Assembly (NCBI GenBank): GCA_020080175.1
Contig: JAGHQL010000123.1
Coordinates: forward strand, 1-64,000
Length of the DNA: 64,000 nt
Reading direction: 5' to 3'
Source: Glutinoglossum americanum
Taxonomy: Eukaryota; Ascomycota; Geoglossomycetes; Geoglossales; Geoglossaceae
Shown here: piece by piece, positions 3,132-64,000 of the stretch
Numbering within the stretch: position 1 is the stretch's first letter
How the letters are laid out: the number at the start of each line of letters is the position of its first letter
Notes under the pieces: generated by a model
The model's database searches: none
The model's input: only the letters and a program-made list of their open reading frames with translations
Told to the model about the DNA's origin: nothing
Translations under genes and position numbers: made by a program

Positions 3132-6100
3132 CGTGTGAATGCCTGTAAGAGATAAGGAGTGAGAGGAGATTGGGGGGTTAAGTGTTGAAACCCTTTAGGC
3201 CGTGACCGTGACCTGTGGAGTGACTAGTGTGGGGTGACCTTTTTTTTTACCGTTGCGACTAAACCGTTCGAATATTTCCAGGACCGTGTTCTTCCGTCTT
3301 TAGGGTTGTTGAGGTGACGGGTGACCTCGAGTTTAGGGCAATTTCCAGTTTTGGTGAATGAGGTATTGTTGGGATCCTTTTACCGTGTAGTAATTAAATC
3401 GCGTATCGGGGAGGTTTATGCGCCAAAAAGGCGTGTAAACAAACACGAGGAGAGTCCGAAGGAACCTATGAAATCGTTTAGGACCTCAGAGGAAGGAATT
3501 ATCCTTACGAGTTCTTCGGGGTGCGTTGAATGGTTCGAAACTGGAAAGATGCGAAAACTCGAAATCGACCGAAACGCCGCCTAAACTTTCGACAGAGACA
3601 AACTCCAGTCACCGTCTGTACAGATCTAACCGTTGTGACCTAACTCGAAGCCTTATCGCAACGCCCTCAGAATAGATACAAGCCTCGCCGACAACAAAGT
3701 CGTAAAGCGCGTATGCAGATCGAGAACTAGCGAATTTCTAGCAAGGAGCCTCCGAGGAAACAGTGACAATTATATCTGAATAGCCGGTGACTGGAGCGAA
3801 GAGGTATGAGTTGATAAACATGTTGCTGGCAAGTATTCGACGATGGAAAGGTGTTAAGATCCCGATGACTTGTCGAAGTACTTAGGAAGTTGCCGATGCT
3901 ATCATATAGAATTCCGTATGCGCTATAAGCAACAAGCGGAGGCGACTGAAACTTGAGACTATGACGCGCAGGATGAATGAGTGGAGATATGGGATCGTTG
4001 TTGCCGCTTGACCTTAGTATAGCAAAACTCCAGCTGTGGAAAGGCTGGAGGCCGCCGCGGCAAAGGTACGCAACCCGACGGAGTGACTAACAGAGAACCC
4101 TGAGCCGACGGAGGAAAGATTCAGGGAGCTTTAGGAAAAAACGATGAGGTTGGAGTGGCGATTAAAAAAAACTAGAAATCAAATGACGAAGACGTCGAAT
4201 TGTAAGTCGGAGACAAGGAGGGAATGACTGGATGCGGATGAGTCTTTTTCGGAGGGGGCGCGGCAAGCACAGGCCTGGAAGGAGGAGGTTTGTCTCAAAC
4301 GCGACCGACTGACGCTTGGATGCCTTGGAGCTCAGCGAGCTTTGCAAACCGTCGTAATTTAAGAGACGTTTTGGGGTTTCTGCGATGGAGGGGGGGTGGG
4401 TATATTCCGATGTGGTGGTGGGCGAGGTAGTGTTGACAAAAAAGGCAGAGAAGATCACGAAACAACAATCGGAGCGGAGAGGATATCGACGAAAATTGCA
4501 GAACCGAGAGAGGAGCAGGTCCGAGTAGAGTCTGGAGAGAGGGCTAATCGAGTGGCGGAGTGCGGACCTCAATGAGTCGCTCTAGGAGCTTTTATCTCGA
4601 CCATCTTCGCCGTACTGGAAGAGAGGGAGCAAGCATCGGTCGCGGGCCCCCTTCGGGTTTTGTTAGTAACTAACCAGAGCGACTGAGCGGGGGAGGGAGT
4701 GACTCTCAGTTGCTGGCATGGCAGGAATCGCCTAGCTCGCACACACCCAACCAAAGGGACCAAAGGGAGGGCCCGCCTATTCTGAGCCCGCACACCCACA
4801 CGCACACAGGCTCGCTACTACTTACACCGCGCTGCACAGCATACATTGCAATAAATCGGGCCCCCGTCAAATTGTTTTTCTTTTCACAGCCGTGTCTAAT
4901 TCCGCAGCAAGCCCCCGCCAGCCTCTCACCAAGTCACTGAGAAACCCCCATATTTTTGTCGCCATCGCTTCGTGACACACGACGAGTTCACTCCACCGGC
5001 CGTCGCTCACGCCAGAGCGGCTGTACTGTTTGCCACTTCGCCCTCGTCACTGGGTGGTGGTTTGGAGAGCAACACTCGTTGCGCTTAGAGAGGGCAGCGG
5101 GAGTCACTCCTGGGCGATTAATCGCCTCTGGCTAGCCTGCTACTGGGTCGGCATAACCCGCTGTGACATCGAAGTTACTCCGGCTCATCATCGAGGTAAG
5201 GACCCCATATCTTCCGTTGGGTTGGCATTGATTGCTGCGTCACAGCCCAAATTCCCATCAAACTGATCAACCTCGTCCGTCCACCCTGCGACTCCCTTTC
5301 TTACCCTTACCCTTGAGATCTCATCTCGTCCAATAATGGCAGTCCTAGCTCGTAGAACAATGGCCGCCTTCCCCGCTTCCATGCAGCTGAGGCGCTGCTG
5401 ATTCGCTGGCCAAAACTACCTTGCAGCGCTCGATCATGGCGAGGTCGGCGTCCTGGGATGCGCAACCCTGAGCTCAAACGCTCCGAAACAGGATGCTTCG
5501 TACATGGCGGCGCTCTCTGTCCGACCGTGGGTTCATGTGCCCATGTTGGTCCACGTTTGAGAACCTTCTTTGTGTGCCAACCAAATTACCAGCCTCGCGA
5601 TGAGTCAAAGGTCCCTAATTAGGCTGCAAGCGGACCACATCTCGCAAAGCGAAAAAAGCATTATCATATGACGCGCACAAATCAGCTCGTTGCAAGCTTT
5701 GCACGCCGAGCCGATGCGCCACTGGGGAAAAAGCGATGAGAGTGGCAATTTCCCGGGCGGCCTCCGGGCCACTCCTCCCCAGACCAAGATGGATGATGCA
5801 TTGAACATTTCTGATGCTGCCTGCCTCTCTAGCCTCCGAACGATGGGGCCAGTCCAGATCGTGTCGCTTAAGGTGTGGTTACGCAACTGGGAAACAACGC
5901 CCTCTCCAGCCTCGTTGGCATAGCCCTTTCGAGATCTCCATGCTTATTCCTCAGTTAATCATCAGCCATCGCGAGGCACCCGATGGAACGACCAAGGAAA
6001 AAGGCTGTGTCCGTCTCAGCTCTGCCCTGACTAAGAATTGACTCGGGAATCAGGGCATATTTGCGACAGGAAGGTGTGGAGAGAACGAAAAACTGAACCA

Positions 6101-44341: not shown

Positions 44342-45811
44342 GCAGTGGATGAGAATGGAGAATGAAAGATGACCTCGCCCTGTACAGGGATTTATGAAGA
44401 CTCGGAAGGTGAAGATAAGCTACAGGAATGGAGCTCCGACGGCTACAAGAATCTGGGGGGGGCTGCAGATCCATTTTGGGCGTTAGATCCTGATTTTGCC
44501 AGTATGCCAAAATTGTCCCGTCCGAGCCGTTTCCTAGTGATAGATAGTACAGAAGCCCAGCTGCAAAAGTTTTCAGAATTTCACTTAGGCTTTACCCCGC
44601 TAAAATCTAGTTAAAAGTCAAGTTGAGCCTTCGCCCGACCTTCGCGTACGAGACATTTTGGTGGGGGTGTGCAGTTAAGGCTACGGTCGTCTCCTATACC
44701 TACTTATGGTAGCATTTGGCGGCTGCCTTGCAGAAAGATCCAGGATGATAGCCTGCAAAATTATTAGCACAAGGATAGAGGAGTCTCAAAGCAGGCACGG
44801 AACACATCTACGCGAAGCCAAGGGAAGAAATCAAAGAGATTCACAGCTAAGATATATTCTCCGTCTGGGTTCTGCGGTACGCGAAGTTGTGTCGCCGCGA
44901 TGGGATACCTGGGGCGAGCGCACTCACCCCAGTTAGCGCTGCAGAAAGAGCTTTCAGAAGCTCTACAAGCTCAAGTGCTGGCGTGATCTGTAGTTCTCCA
45001 ATAGTCAAATAAAGATGACGCCTCGCCTTTGGCGGTAGCGATAAGACTGCGAAGGATGCTATTTGCAAACCCATATGGAGTTCTCTGTACCTAATAGTGG
45101 CTCATATATCCTATCGAACTGCACCTGCGGAGGCGAGGTAGGATTGTAAAAGAAAATAGCAAGCAAAACAAGTATATGACCCTAAATGTCAGAACCGTCG
45201 ACCGGGATGCTGTTGAGGCTCATTGGGTAGCCGTCCATCCCCCTCCCTGCTTTCTTCCCACTTCTCCCTACTACGTCTTCCCTGATAGCGTTATACAGTA
45301 TAGAGCATCGAGTGTAGACAACCGGGCTTTTGGTTGCGTCAAAGAGACTTCAGCTTGATTATAAGAGGTATTTGCACATTTCCCTAGTCTTTCAAGTCTA
45401 TGAACGCTAAGTTCTAGGCACCCCGGGCTCACCCGAGCTTAGGACGGCGACGCTCACCCACTGGAACGGGAAAGGAAACCGCGCAAATGAGGGTAGATAT
45501 TCATTCTGTAGGTATGTACGAAGTATGCAGTATGCAACCAGGGGGCGATGGCGAGCGGGGCAGCACTATATAATATTCGACAACGACACCCCCGCAATAA
45601 CAACGGTCGTTCATTCACCAATTCATAAGCTCTCGTTCCCATTTCAATCGCTCACTTTATCCAAAAAAAAACTCAGGGCAGATATCCATCGCCGTCACTC
45701 TCCTCATAACCCTTGAGAATTAGATACATAGTCACTTCTTCACCGGGTCGAGAGAGACGGTTAGCGGGAGGTTCAAAGGCACCCAGAGCAATAATTAAGA
45801 ACGCCGACACT
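44342..45811. other. 1.5-kb spacer without a recognisable gene
   Basis: Short frames on both strands (for example 44847-45074 minus) have no family resemblance. The last 300 bp presumably carry the peroxiredoxin promoter and leader. Confidence 0.5.
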
Positions 45812-46754
45812 ATGAGTGGACTCAAAGCCGGTGATAAGTTCCCTGAGGGCGTGGTTTTTAAGTACGTATTCCGCTCTATATCTTGTTACCTCCATACCTT
45901 TACCTCCCACATATACCTATCTGCCTGTCCTCCTCTCCTTCGTTCAACTTCCGCAAACACCACACTCCACACCACAATCACGAACACCTCCATATTCCCT
46001 ACTCCCTCTATCATCACCTCGCTAACCCCAAAAAGCTACATCCCCTACACCCCCGAGAAATCCTCCCTCTCCGCCTGCGGAATCCCCCAGTCCTACCCCG
46101 CCTCCGAGCGTTTCGCCGGAAAAAAAGTGATCCTCATCTCCACCCCCGGGGCGTTCACGCCTGGATGCCATCAGCGCCGTACGCACGCTTCCTTTCCCTT
46201 CCCCTTCCCCCCCCCCAAAAAAAAAAAAAAAACACCACAGCCCGCTCACCTAGAAGACGGAACGAGCGCAACAGACCTCCCGGGCTACTTGAACAACTTG
46301 CCATCCCTGGAAGCCCAAGGTGTCGACATCATCGCGGTGATAGCGTACAATGACCCCTGGGTCATGAGCGCGTGGGGGAAGGCGAACAACGTGTACGGCA
46401 ACTACGTCGTCTGTCTTCCCCCCTACCAATCAATATCCATAACAGATAGGCGGCTGATGCGTGGCTCTGTGGCGCGCAGATCTTCCTCACCGACCCCTCG
46501 ATCAAATTCTCCAAATCCATCGGCTGGACGAACGGCGAGAGGACGGCGAGGTATGTGATTGTGCTTGAGGATGGGGTTGTGAAGTACGCGGCTAGGGAGA
46601 CGGGGAGCGAGGTTATCGTGAGTTCCCCCCCCCTTCCGTTTTTATGTTTTTATGTTTGTATGTGGGTTTAGGAGTGGTGGGGTTCTTGGCTGATCTACGG
46701 GGTTTTTTTTGGGGATAGGCGACGAGTGTGGAGACTGTGTCGTCGAAGTTGTGA
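45812..46754 (+). CDS. PMP20: Peroxisomal peroxiredoxin (Prx5/Pmp20 type)
   Basis: Thiol peroxidase that reduces H2O2 and alkyl hydroperoxides. Five exons: 45812-45861, 46036-46178, 46254-46405, 46480-46617 and 46719-46754, giving 172 residues. The core reads MSGLKAGDKFPEGVVF, ISTPGAFTPGCH (peroxidatic Cys61), VIAYNDPWVMSAW and KFSKSIGWTNGERTARYV. The final 36-bp exon encodes ATSVETVSSKL and so ends in SKL, a canonical PTS1 signal for peroxisome import. The second intron holds C- and A-runs; its acceptor at 46253 was chosen for phase, and the exon 3 end could also be 46408. Homologues include the Aspergillus allergen Asp f 3. Confidence 0.88.
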
Positions 46755-57862: not shown

Positions 57863-59217
57863 ATGACTGAACCAGCTGCCCCCTCGGGAAAACCCGAGAT
57901 CTCAAAGCTCATTGCCCAGTATAGACCAGATATGAGCCCCTATGAAGACCTATATCGCAAACTCCATGCTAATCCTGAGCTCTCTCTCCAGGAGGGTACA
58001 ACAGCCGCGGAAGTAGCAAGCCGCTTAAGATCACTAGGCCTCGAAGTCCGAATGAGCATTGGTGGGCATGGCGTCGTTGGGATTTTCAGGAACGGAATAG
58101 GAAAGACTGTGCTTCTGAGAGCCGAGCTGGACGCGCTTCCCGTGCAGGAGCAGACCGGTTTGGAGTTTGCAAGTACAAAAAGAATGGTTGACGTAGCAGA
58201 CAATGTGGAAAAACCTGTAATGCACGCCTGTGGCCATGACCTGCACATGTCGTCTCTCCTCGCAGCCTCAAAACTTCTATATTCGTGTCGAGATTTCTGG
58301 GCCGGCACACTCCTCATCCTCTTCCAACCAAACGAAGAGCATGGCGCCGGCGCACAAGCTATGGTCGATGATGGGCTATACGATGAGGGGAGACATGCTA
58401 TTCCGAAACCAGATGTCGTCCTCGGCGGCCACGTCATATCCATGCGATCAGGCAGAGTCGGCACCCGTAAAGGCCCCTTCAACAGCGCAGCAAACAGCTA
58501 CAAAGCCGTACTCTACGGTCGCGGCGGCCACGGAAGCCGGCCACACATGACTATAGACCCCGTCGTGCTGGCGTGTAGCACAGTCTTGAAGCTACAAACC
58601 ATCGTGAGCCGCGAGTCGGACCCGCAAGAGCCTGTTGTCGTGACAGTTGGAGCCTTGCATGCCGGCGAGGCCGAAAACGTCATCAGTGAAGAAGCAACCC
58701 TGTGGATCAACACTAGGGCATTCAGTATCCGTTCACGAGACCGCACCAAAGCAGCAATCGACCGTATCATTAACGCCGAATGCCAGGCAGCCGGCTCCCC
58801 AAAACCTCCCCTGATAGAAGCAACTGGCTTCTTTCCCCTGCTCTACAACGACGAAGCAACCACCGAGGTCGTTTCACAAGCTTTCGAGGCCCATTTCGGC
58901 AAGTCCTTCGACCCCAACTCGCCGGCCTCGATGGGTAGTGAGGATTTTGCGAATTTGGCGGATCCGGTATCGGCGCCGGGGTGCTTCTGGAATTATGGAG
59001 GGATTGACCCGCAGCTGTGGGACGATGCGAAGGAGAGGGGGAAGCTCGAGGAAATTCCCGGTATTTTCACGGATAACTTTTTGACTTGCGCTGGCGTTAC
59101 GAAGGCTGATTTTCCCATGCAGGCAATCACAATCCGTTCTTCGCACCTGTTCTTCAGCCATCTCTAACCGTTGCTATTGATGCGTATGCTACGGCAGCTC
59201 TAGCTTTCCTACTCTAA
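57863..59217 (+). CDS. M20 family amidohydrolase (N-acyl-amino-acid hydrolase type)
   Basis: Metal-dependent hydrolase of the M20D group, which removes acyl groups from N-acyl or conjugated amino acids. Two exons, 57863-59060 and 59123-59217, give 430 residues; the short intron restores the normal C-terminus (PGNHNPFFAPVLQPSL) that simple read-through would lose. The metal-binding HACGHDLHMS begins at His121, and NEEHGAGAQAMVDDGLYD follows with catalytic Glu158 or Glu159. The dimerisation domain contains GRGGHGSRPHMTIDPV, and the final ligand region reads ASMGSEDFANL. No signal peptide, so probably cytosolic. The substrate is unknown; the neighbours suggest specialised metabolism. Confidence 0.9.
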
Positions 59218-59424: not shown

Positions 59425-60404
59425 CTAGCCAGCCTGCGCCCACATCTCCTGAAGATTATGCTCTGGCCTCAAAAAATATGAAATATAGTAACGTTTCGCA
59501 AACCCGTCAACTGGCTGTGTGACACGATGTAGTGGCGAGTGGAGCCTGTTCCCAGAGAGCCGCTGCAGCGAGTTTGCGACATTAATAAGAGCACATCCAG
59601 GTACAGGCGCAGTGAAAGCCCATTTCTTTGCCTCGGGTAGCTCTGCATGCAACCCCCACTGGTCGTAGAATAACAACGTGAATGTGCCACTATCGGTGTG
59701 CTTATTATCACCGACTTGGCCCTTGCTGGCTAGCGATGGTTCATAGATCAGCTTTAGTCCAGAATCGCTGGATTCGGTTTGGCGGTGGTGCTTTTCGAGG
59801 CGGTCGTTCTTATCTAGCCCTAGAGAATCGGAGAGACAAGAAAGCATTGTTAGACAGGCGGAATGGCTAAGTTCGGAGAACTTTCTGAGCATGTCGGCGT
59901 TATCGCCGAGGACGCCGGGGAGCGGAGTTCTTCCTTTGACAATTTCGTCGTATGCCATCTAGAAGAAAAGGTCAGAAGCAGCCCAAAACTAGGGAGTTGT
60001 GCAGACCCACCTCGAAAGTCTCATCGCAATCACTCGTCTTGTAGCTTGGTAAAAATACCTCAGTACCTACTTCGGAGCATGGTGTTATTGCTCATGGCTT
60101 ACCCGCGATCCTGAGATGGTTTCTGTCCCTCTCTGTAATCTGAGACCTTCAACTGGTGGGGCTGGTCGAAATATTTCTCAGATACACTGTAGACACCCGG
60201 TAAGTCTGCCAGCAACTGCATTGCGGAGGGGTCATTCCGGAGATCGAGGTAGAAGAGACCAGGATACTGGGCGGCTCTGAGCAGCTTCTCAATCTCAGTA
60301 GACTCTCGAGTCGCCAGGAGTGCAAGGTCAACGGTTTCGAGGACCGCGACGTCGATTAGCTCGTGGTTGGCCAAGGCCGTGGACGTAACAGCGTTTTGAG
60401 CCAT
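59425..60404 (-). CDS. 2-oxoglutarate/Fe(II)-dependent oxygenase (IPNS-like)
   Basis: Non-haem iron oxygenase that would couple 2-oxoglutarate decarboxylation to hydroxylation, desaturation or ring formation. Three exons: 60404-60103, 60044-60011 and 59958-59425, in phase, giving 289 residues. The N-terminal DIOX_N-like part has IEKLLRAAQYPGLFYLDL. The core has HTDSGTF with iron ligands His199 and Asp201, the distal His in HSPLHRVTQP, and RYYISYFLRP for 2-oxoglutarate binding. The 34-bp middle exon uses the acceptor before CTACAAG; a nearer AG would bring a stop. At 289 residues it is short for the family (usually 310-370), mainly in the loop between domains. It is convergent with the M20 gene. 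Confidence 0.85.
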
Positions 60405-61879: not shown

Positions 61880-63245
61880 TCATGCAGAGATGTCAGGATA
61901 ACCCAACATGTCAACCTCCTGCCACTCCTTGCTCTCTCCATATGCCTTATGGATTGGATCCAATAATTGATTGAACGCGTCAGCAATAGCCATATTCAAC
62001 GCAAAATGAGAGAGCTCATTCTCGGCAAGATCCTGCTCGATCTCTTTGTAAGACTTGTAGTGTTTATACCCGCGTCCATTTCCCCCTCCTGTCTCAACAG
62101 TGAAGACTGTGCCTTCCGGAGCATCCCTACTACAGAATGGCTGCTGATCGGGCAGAGCTTCTGCAGGATCCCGACCCTGTAATCTCTCAAGCCGAAGCTC
62201 GCTGATAGGGATTAAGATGTCTCTCAGAGAAGCCAAGACACCGTTTTCGGCGACGTTATTCCCCCGATCATCAGCTTCGCTAATCTTCTTGGTGACTGCA
62301 TCTGGGCTGTCGAGAATCATGATCTTGGTATTCGGGGGACTTGAGGACGACATCTTCTCGCCCAGACAGTTTGGGAGCATTGGGTTCATTATATGCGCAC
62401 GTCTCTCATACCCAAGCTGCGGAAGATATCGTTCGGCGAACGCGAAAATGCGGGCCTGCAAGCAAAATTAGCCTGTCATGAAAGAGCACGTCTTGCGGCG
62501 TGGATAAGTTTACCTGGTCTTCACCACCGAATTGGATGTCGACCCCAAGGTGTTCCTCTGCCAACGTTTGCAATCCAGGACAGAGCATTGGACTGAGGAT
62601 ATTTGGGTTATAACTCCGGTCCCAAGCGTCCCTTACAGCCTGCTGAGGTACGAGTGTACATAGCCTCCATTGATCGGAGATAAATTCTAAGTTTGTCTGA
62701 TAGGTTGATTCTTGCACAAAGCGCACCCTTGAAGAGGGAATTCCGATCGCCTCGAGGGCTGCCATTATGGTGAACTTATAGTAATGCATGCGCTGCAGCA
62801 CCTGCTCCATTGGATACTTGACGTTGTCCAGGAATGAATAGACATCGAGAAGCAATACCACAACCTATCATTCATTAGGCAAATGCGAGTGGGAATCATT
62901 AAATAAGTGGGTCATTAATCACCTCTACTCCTGCTTCCAAAAAATCCACAAACTTTAGCAATGGGACAAAGTACCCTATGTGTGCTGGCTACCATCTCAG
63001 CACCTAATCAATGTGTTTCGACTGATATCTGCCCTCACGTTTTCCTGTAGGCGATGTTGCTTCACAAAATGTTAGGTTGATATCGTTGGAACTAAACAGA
63101 TAATTCACGTACCCCAGAGACATTTCAGTGTCTTGCCTTTGGTTTCGAGGGCGGCCTTGATCAACTCCGCACCATGAACGTCTTCTGCTGGTAGTCTCCG
63201 AGTGATGAGGTTGAATCTCTCCTCTATGCTTAGTATACTAGCCAT
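61880..63245 (-). CDS. Divergent tyrosyl-tRNA-synthetase-like protein
   Basis: Class I synthetase of the eukaryotic/cytosolic TyrRS type, without a C-terminal EMAPII domain. Five exons: 63245-63113, 63059-63039, 62984-62924, 62864-62514 and 62455-61880. It starts MASILSIEERFNLITRRL; an upstream in-frame Met at 63299 is possible. HIGH-type motif PTGKPHIGYF, QFGGEDQ and GEKMSSSS (about 223-227) are present, so ATP binding looks kept. Against human TyrRS, pocket residues differ: Leu43 for Tyr39, Cys167 for Tyr166 and Ala174 for Asp173. Exon 3 has five T where the reading frame needs six (near 62938-62942), so the gene is either frameshifted or misassembled. An acceptor 4 bp upstream (exon from 62988) restores frame (381 aa) but replaces the HIGH motif. 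This looks like a paralogue, not the housekeeping enzyme. Confidence 0.75.
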
Positions 63246-63816
63246 TATTTGGGGTAGAGATAATTTGAGAGAAGGATAGAATTCTGGATTCCAATCCAAT
63301 GGTTTTATGCGGACATAGCAGCAATGGTAGCAGCTATATAACTAACGTTTACGAGGCAAAGTCTGTCAAGCTAAGGTCTGTACTACCCACACCTGCTTTC
63401 GCTCCTGAGGAGTAGCATGTTGGCTGATTGTTACATCCGCACCCCTCCAGGTTAGACGCCCTGCGTTTGCCCTATTGAGGTCATACTCTAATTCTCATGA
63501 GCCAATTACGCCCCATGCAAAGGTTGCCAAATTGCCTCTGGTAGTCAAGACGGCAGAGGGAATGGGCCGAAGGTAACACGGGTTTTCACCAATAATCTAC
63601 CTTTTGGTCTAAGATATGAGAGCCCACGCAGACAAAAATTTGTTACCAGCCTTGCCCTCTGATACCGGTCCTGCAGGTAATCTACACACCAGGCACGGGC
63701 CAAGTCAGCCATCCCGCGCAATAAGAGAAAATTGCCATTGTGCATATATTACTGCATGTCATCTAGCCTCCCCCGTTAGCATCTGGACTGCACAAACCGA
63801 ACTTAGCACGCACGGC
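63246..63816. other. Divergent spacer, TyrRS-like gene / P450-like gene
   Basis: About 570 bp with no gene recognised; presumably the promoters of the two flanking divergent genes. Confidence 0.5.
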
Positions 63817-64000
63817 ATGCCTGCCAATATCAATATCGATACGTCTTTTATCTTGCTAGCACTCTCCATCACCATTCTCACACTCACACTTATCCAAGCA
63901 TATGAGCTCTGGGCGACATACTCTCTAGGAACTAGGGCTAAGAGGAGAGAAGCCAAGTTGCCGCCGCGTGGCCCAATATCTAAGAATTCGTTCAACGAAA
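63817..64000 (+). CDS. N-terminus of a membrane-anchored protein, possibly a cytochrome P450 (partial)
   Basis: An open frame from ATG 63817 runs off the window after 61 codons. It begins MPANINIDTSFILLALSITI, a single hydrophobic anchor (about 9-28), then YELWATYSLGTRAKRREAKL and a Pro-rich hinge (LPPRGPISK). Anchor, basic linker and Pro-rich segment is the usual start of microsomal fungal P450s. The heme-binding part lies outside the window, so the family is inference; other anchored oxidoreductases would fit too. Confidence 0.45.
   Translation, partial: MPANINIDTSFILLALSITILTLTLIQAYELWATYSLGTRAKRREAKLPPRGPISKNSFNE

Follow-up and report, generated by a model that had tools for sequence, protein, structure and literature searches.

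A divergent tyrosyl-tRNA synthetase paralogue in Glutinoglossum americanum as a candidate amino-acid-activating ligase of specialised metabolism

We analysed a 64,000-nucleotide stretch of the genome of the fungus Glutinoglossum americanum (contig JAGHQL010000123.1, positions 1 to 64,000; the window), which carries an extra, strongly altered copy of tyrosyl-tRNA synthetase (TyrRS). The reading that we favour, with a probability of roughly one half (about 0.52), is that this paralogue is a TyrRS-derived amino-acid-activating ligase of specialised metabolism that works in a small oxidative pathway. Among several readings, a biosynthetic role explains the data best, but it is unproven. Loss of the preference for tyrosine is well supported by the sequence, and charging of tRNA-Tyr is doubtful.

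Gene structure, family and origin of the paralogue

The paralogue is encoded on the minus strand from 63245 to 61880 by five exons separated by four GT-AG introns of 53-58 nt. Its frame is intact and uninterrupted over 380 codons (380 aa), from an ATG at 63245 to a stop codon that ends at 61880:

63113..63245, minus strand: exon 1, with the start ATG (63245-63243) and the Leu43 codon (63119-63117)
63039..63059, minus strand: exon 2, encoding A45-T-S-P-T-G-K, the first half of the HIGH-like motif
62923..62984, minus strand: exon 3, encoding PHIGYF and following residues, the second half of the HIGH-like motif
62514..62864, minus strand: exon 4, encoding Leu78, Tyr81, Cys167 (62582-62580), Gln171, Ala174 (62561-62559) and QFGGEDQ
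61880..62455, minus strand: exon 5, encoding the KMSSSS loop and the C-terminal domain, with the lysine-rich tail of cytosolic TyrRS missing

The coordinates 61880..63245 given in a first-pass annotation of this DNA are exact, and the PTGKPHIGYF, QFGGEDQ and KMSSSS elements that it had named are all present.

The protein is of the eukaryotic type. Its closest solved structures are 2dlc from yeast (E=3e-78) and 1n3l from human (E=3e-72), followed by archaeal TyrRSs. The aligned stretches of the yeast and human enzymes are 44.5% and 42.6% identical to it, respectively; for the fungus's own cytosolic TyrRS, which itself is 61% identical to yeast, the figure is 39.5%. It matches PF00579 (class I tRNA-synt_1b) with 123.6 bits against a cut-off of 21.1, and no other domain family. 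The cut-offs of two curated TyrRS equivalog models are missed by the paralogue (PRK08560, 129.9 vs 220; TIGR00234, 91.8 vs 113.8); these models are meant for prokaryote annotation, and the fungus's own cytosolic enzyme nevertheless passes both (259 and 203.9, respectively).

Searched with PF00579, the 25.8 Mb, 317-contig genome yielded nine matches spread over five contigs, which we read as five genes: a canonical cytosolic TyrRS with Y40, Y167, Q171 and D174 (contig C256), a mitochondrial-type TyrRS with a YPLLQAWD motif (C81), TrpRSs on C5 and C120, and the paralogue in the window. With the paralogue protein as query, the matches in the genome were the paralogue itself and C256 only. Because canonical cytosolic and mitochondrial-type TyrRSs exist elsewhere in the genome, the copy in the window is an extra gene, and we rejected its identity as the housekeeping enzyme.

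Intron 1 is common to the paralogue and the own cytosolic TyrRS, lying in the same position after a Trp codon and in the same phase (1). In a tree of 28 rows, the paralogue branches next to the pair formed by the own and yeast cytosolic TyrRSs (96/88). Its branch is very long (1.59 vs 0.5 and 0.25), which makes its placement uncertain. These data agree with a duplication in the fungal lineage and rapid divergence afterwards. A bacterial or viral origin is unsupported, given the clustering with the yeast and own enzymes and the common intron position, and no relative of the paralogue was confirmed among the viral contigs scanned.

Amino-acid pocket and ATP site

A MAFFT alignment brought together the paralogue, the own cytosolic TyrRS and stretches of the TyrRSs of human (1n3l) and yeast (2dlc), and the pocket was defined by 13 contact positions of human TyrRS from its resveratrol complex, 4Q93, as listed in the accessible part of PMC6207623. 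All 13 are identical in the human, yeast and own cytosolic enzymes. Five are kept in the paralogue (T42, L72, Q170, Q182 and I191) and eight are changed, namely Y39L, G41A, A43S, A74L, H77Y, Y166C, D173A and V152, the last being alignment-dependent since it is gapped in the human/yeast/own alignment and aligned to Ala in alignments that contain archaeal sequences. The first-pass annotation, aligning by eye, had equated Leu43, Cys167, Gln171 and Ala174 with human Tyr39, Tyr166, Gln170 and Asp173; the MAFFT alignment agrees with this assignment and places neither Tyr nor Asp of the paralogue at the phenol-binding columns, and the changes stand. In human TyrRS, Tyr39 and Asp173 bind the phenol OH of tyrosine and Tyr166 binds its amino group.

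For a wider comparison, a scan of genome contigs provided 30 archaeal TyrRS loci, two of which contained stops and were removed (L018 and L038). The remaining 28, together with three eukaryotic sequences, make up a 31-TyrRS comparison set, and leaving out four short ones (L031, L040, L041 and L042) gives the near-full-length set of 27 that was used for the tree and the column test. The archaeal comparators were found via QFGG-type and RAHLMNPM-type patterns and their conservation there is partly by construction; the patterns overlap the pocket columns only at Gln182 and the ATP columns at 184, 185, 187 and 214. Y39, G41, A74 and H77 are invariant in the 30 of 30 comparison TyrRSs, eukaryotic and archaeal, that cover them, as are Y166, D173 and R189 in 31 of 31, and every one of these residues is altered in the paralogue.

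At the ATP site, all 14 motif positions, which we chose from the HIGH-like, GG-DQ and KMSKS motifs, are identical to human TyrRS. The contrast between pocket and ATP columns is significant (Fisher p=0.0016, using the 13 ATP columns that are invariant in human, yeast and own TyrRS). Among 46 columns invariant in the 27 comparators, the paralogue alters 13; six of the comparators, each tested against the rest, alter 0, 0, 1, 1, 2 and 5 columns. The alterations fall on 7 of 11 pocket columns (one of the seven being the alignment-dependent V152) vs 6 of 35 columns elsewhere (Fisher p=0.006). With only the human, yeast and own enzymes as reference the contrast is weaker (8/13 pocket vs 43/128 other invariant columns, p=0.067) and we therefore conclude that the paralogue has diverged widely and that the pocket does not stand alone.

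We take Tyr39 and Asp173 of human TyrRS to correspond to Tyr32 and Asp158 of Methanocaldococcus jannaschii TyrRS. The latter two hydrogen-bond the phenol OH of tyrosine, and their replacement favours substrates larger than tyrosine, according to the accessible text of PMC9499402, in which engineered archaeal TyrRS variants carry mutations at these same two contacts. Unlike the paralogue, such variants are laboratory-made, and they still charge tRNA. With both phenol partners replaced, the sequence supports well the earlier proposal that the paralogue has lost its preference for tyrosine. The equivalent of Tyr166, which is Cys in the paralogue, is normally left alone in engineered archaeal variants.

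Altogether, the paralogue resembles eukaryotic cytosolic TyrRSs (2dlc, 1n3l and C256) in its PF00579 domain, its 39-45% identity, its ATP motifs and, for the own copy, the position of intron 1, and differs from them in Y39L, G41A, A74L, H77Y, Y166C and D173A and in tRNA-side residues and a tail that are altered or lost. Two of the three options of the first-pass annotation are disfavoured by this combination. An antibiotic-resistant spare copy, that is, a second housekeeping TyrRS that withstands an inhibitor which the fungus produces or encounters in nature, would suit the logic of self-resistance for an extra copy near possible biosynthetic genes; we regard it as the least probable of the readings, given that comparator-invariant residues are replaced rather than tuned (Y39L, Y166C, D173A and H77Y), that the tRNA side is altered as well and that no PKS/NRPS-type core gene was found among the neighbours examined. 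A decaying duplicate that has yet to acquire a stop codon would account for the long branch, and a nearby PLP decarboxylase gene looks frame-disrupted, but this reading is very unlikely in view of the intact frame with its four introns, the full conservation of the 14 ATP-motif positions and the concentration of changes in one site. In simulations of neutral change of the own TyrRS coding sequence down to 64% residue retention, which ignore indels, only 2 of 1000 runs stayed free of stops (mean 5.9 stops), compared with 3 per 1000 at 70% retention and 42 at 80%, and the rarity of stop-free runs makes simple decay unlikely.

The tRNA side

Positions 189/190, the CP1 motif and the lysine-rich tail, which we take to be parts of the enzyme that contact tRNA, are changed together with the pocket. 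R189 (31/31 comparison TyrRSs) and K190 (29/31, His in two) have become Ala and Arg in the paralogue, the CP1 motif KKAGAE is missing with a deletion of three residues, and K310, invariant in the 27 comparators, is Asn. None of the three frames in the roughly 480 nt that follow the stop codon encodes a lysine-rich C-terminal tail. Changes or losses at positions 189/190, in KKAGAE and in the lysine-rich tail make charging of tRNA-Tyr by the paralogue doubtful. The C-terminal domain is largely retained and may still bind tRNA. Yeast Asp321 is presumably an anticodon contact, and the residue that matches it is absent in the paralogue and also in the own cytosolic TyrRS (C256, L011 about 4000-5313); as the housekeeping enzyme likewise does without it, we regard its loss as non-diagnostic and gave it no weight. 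Yeast Phe296, which we take to be a second anticodon contact, lies outside the aligned yeast stretch.

The most credible of the rival readings, although still unlikely, is that the paralogue charges tRNA with an amino acid other than tyrosine and thereby feeds a tRNA-dependent transferase, as VlmL does, or an unusual decoding. The retained C-terminal domain agrees with this, and synthetase paralogues are known to act through tRNA in roles other than translation: the accessible part of PMC2922099 describes VlmL and the AspRS-MprF fusions, the latter being fungal. Unlike the paralogue, these are class II enzymes, and they charge tRNA. Against tRNA charging stand R189A, K190R, the loss of KKAGAE with its three-residue deletion and the absence of the lysine-rich tail, as well as the outcome of a search for two families of transferases that use aminoacyl-tRNA or are related to such enzymes. 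Neither LPG_synthase_C (PF09924, the MprF-type family) nor Acetyltransf_6 (PF13480) was matched at E<=0.001 in this genome, in a search that could miss exon-split genes; of 14 genomes, the controls match in 7 and 10, respectively.

Joint changes of the pocket and the tRNA side would also arise if the paralogue were idle or non-biosynthetic, as a sensor of amino acids or nucleotides or as an RNA-binding protein, and moonlighting relatives of synthetases exist. We consider this quite unlikely, since all 14 ATP-motif positions examined are kept in the paralogue, which would not be required of a non-catalytic protein.

Neighbouring genes and a model for the paralogue

The following genes lie beside the paralogue or beyond the end of the window:

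57863..59167, plus strand: M20-family amidohydrolase, single exon (start codon chosen by us), with N-alpha-acyl-glutamine aminoacylase (6slf) as closest solved structure
59425..60404, minus strand: 2OG-Fe(II) oxygenase, intact, 289 aa (exons 60404-60103, 60044-60011 and 59958-59425)
63613..64000, plus strand: first part of a haem-oxygenase-like gene (PF14518, Haem_oxygenas_2), divergent from the paralogue and extending past the window
L009 6026-9829 and L010 6862-8695: HET, DUF7580-subtilase and NACHT genes

The last exon of the 2OG-Fe(II) oxygenase, searched alone against PDB sequences, matches thymine dioxygenase and plant oxygenases. A reading of this gene as broken was dropped, as the three-exon model closes the frame. 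The open frame of the PF14518 gene runs over 813 codons with a provisional start codon (C28:63613-66054; L009 1614-4055), and its protein had no match among PDB sequences at E<=1. Relatives in the haem-oxygenase-like superfamily are often diiron enzymes. The presence of these three genes together beside the paralogue, noticed after the fact, looks non-accidental given the numbers of matches to these families genome-wide: the PF14518 gene is the sole match to its family in the 25.8 Mb genome, and 2OG-FeII_Oxy and M20_dimer have at least six and at least four matches, respectively. No transporter, regulator, PKS or NRPS was found among the ORFs run against Pfam (a minority of those in the window), and no cupin among the scanned ORFs.

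Further left, the PLP decarboxylase gene (PF00282; 54247-55613, minus strand) has its C-terminal half in other frames without visible introns, and a Redoxin-family (peroxiredoxin-like) gene lies at 45710-46558 on the plus strand. Beyond the PF14518 gene, towards the contig end, the HET domain, the DUF7580-subtilase fusion and the NACHT domain with ankyrin-like repeats (repeats identified by eye) form a stretch that looks like a self/non-self recognition neighbourhood.

The oxygenase, hydrolase and PF14518 genes favour the remaining option of the first-pass annotation, that of a synthetase turned biosynthetic enzyme. In our model, a cytosolic-type TyrRS was duplicated and the duplicate became an amino-acid-activating enzyme, which would bind ATP as TyrRS does through the kept HIGH-like, GG-DQ and KMSSS motifs and would activate an amino acid other than tyrosine as the aminoacyl-adenylate. 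Because Gln170 and the glutamines of QFGG-DQ are kept, the substrate is probably still an alpha-amino acid; because both phenol partners are lost, its side chain would be hydrophobic or para-substituted and not that of tyrosine. The substrate would thus probably lack a phenol OH and be either hydrophobic or a para-substituted aromatic. The aminoacyl group would be passed to a small-molecule nucleophile, an amine or a hydroxyl, instead of tRNA-Tyr. Oxidation of the substrate or the product may fall to the neighbouring 2OG-Fe(II) oxygenase and the haem-oxygenase-like protein, and the M20 hydrolase may trim an acyl or amide bond. We infer the substrate class, the independence of tRNA, the product and the membership of the neighbouring genes in one pathway.

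Known systems offer analogies for such a ligase. In the accessible part of PMC11705231, MetRS-like domains adenylate amino acids for the synthesis of small molecules, and some gene neighbourhoods of MetRS-like synthetases contain 2OG oxygenases and oxygenases of the haem-oxygenase superfamily, as the available text of PMC2922099 reports. By analogy, the paralogue would share with the MetRS-like/cupin hydrazine synthetases the adenylation of an amino acid by a synthetase paralogue and, in some neighbourhoods, the same types of oxygenase. Unlike the paralogue, which is TyrRS-derived and fungal, these enzymes are MetRS-derived and bacterial and occur with a cupin and an N-hydroxylase; the paralogue contains PF00579 only, and the scanned ORFs include no cupin. 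The mycothiol cysteine ligase MshC, a class I paralogue, is thought to work without tRNA, joining an aminoacyl-adenylate to an amine (PMC2922099, accessible part); it differs from the paralogue in being CysRS-derived and bacterial and in having a known substrate, cysteine. In its logic, the paralogue may be comparable to MshC and to the bacterial MetRS-like hydrazine synthetases.

In the open-licence literature, no fungal TyrRS paralogue of this kind was recognised among the matches listed, as judged from titles and abstract openings. Few cases are known in which a synthetase paralogue was recruited as a ligase, and those that we found described are mostly bacterial. We tentatively speculate that a natural eukaryotic TyrRS here lost recognition of tyrosine and tRNA-Tyr and became a ligase that acts by itself on another amino acid, possibly a non-proteinogenic one, forming with the 2OG oxygenase and the haem-oxygenase-like iron enzyme the core of an NRPS-free pathway; it would then be to TyrRS what the MetRS-like hydrazine synthetases of bacteria are to MetRS. 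The paralogue sequence is ready for direct assay with a panel of amino acids. If our model is correct, a eukaryotic TyrRS-derived ligase would widen the range of fungal pathways that mining based on PKS and NRPS genes overlooks, and its pocket would show a natural re-specification of an enzyme that has been widely re-engineered for unnatural amino acids.
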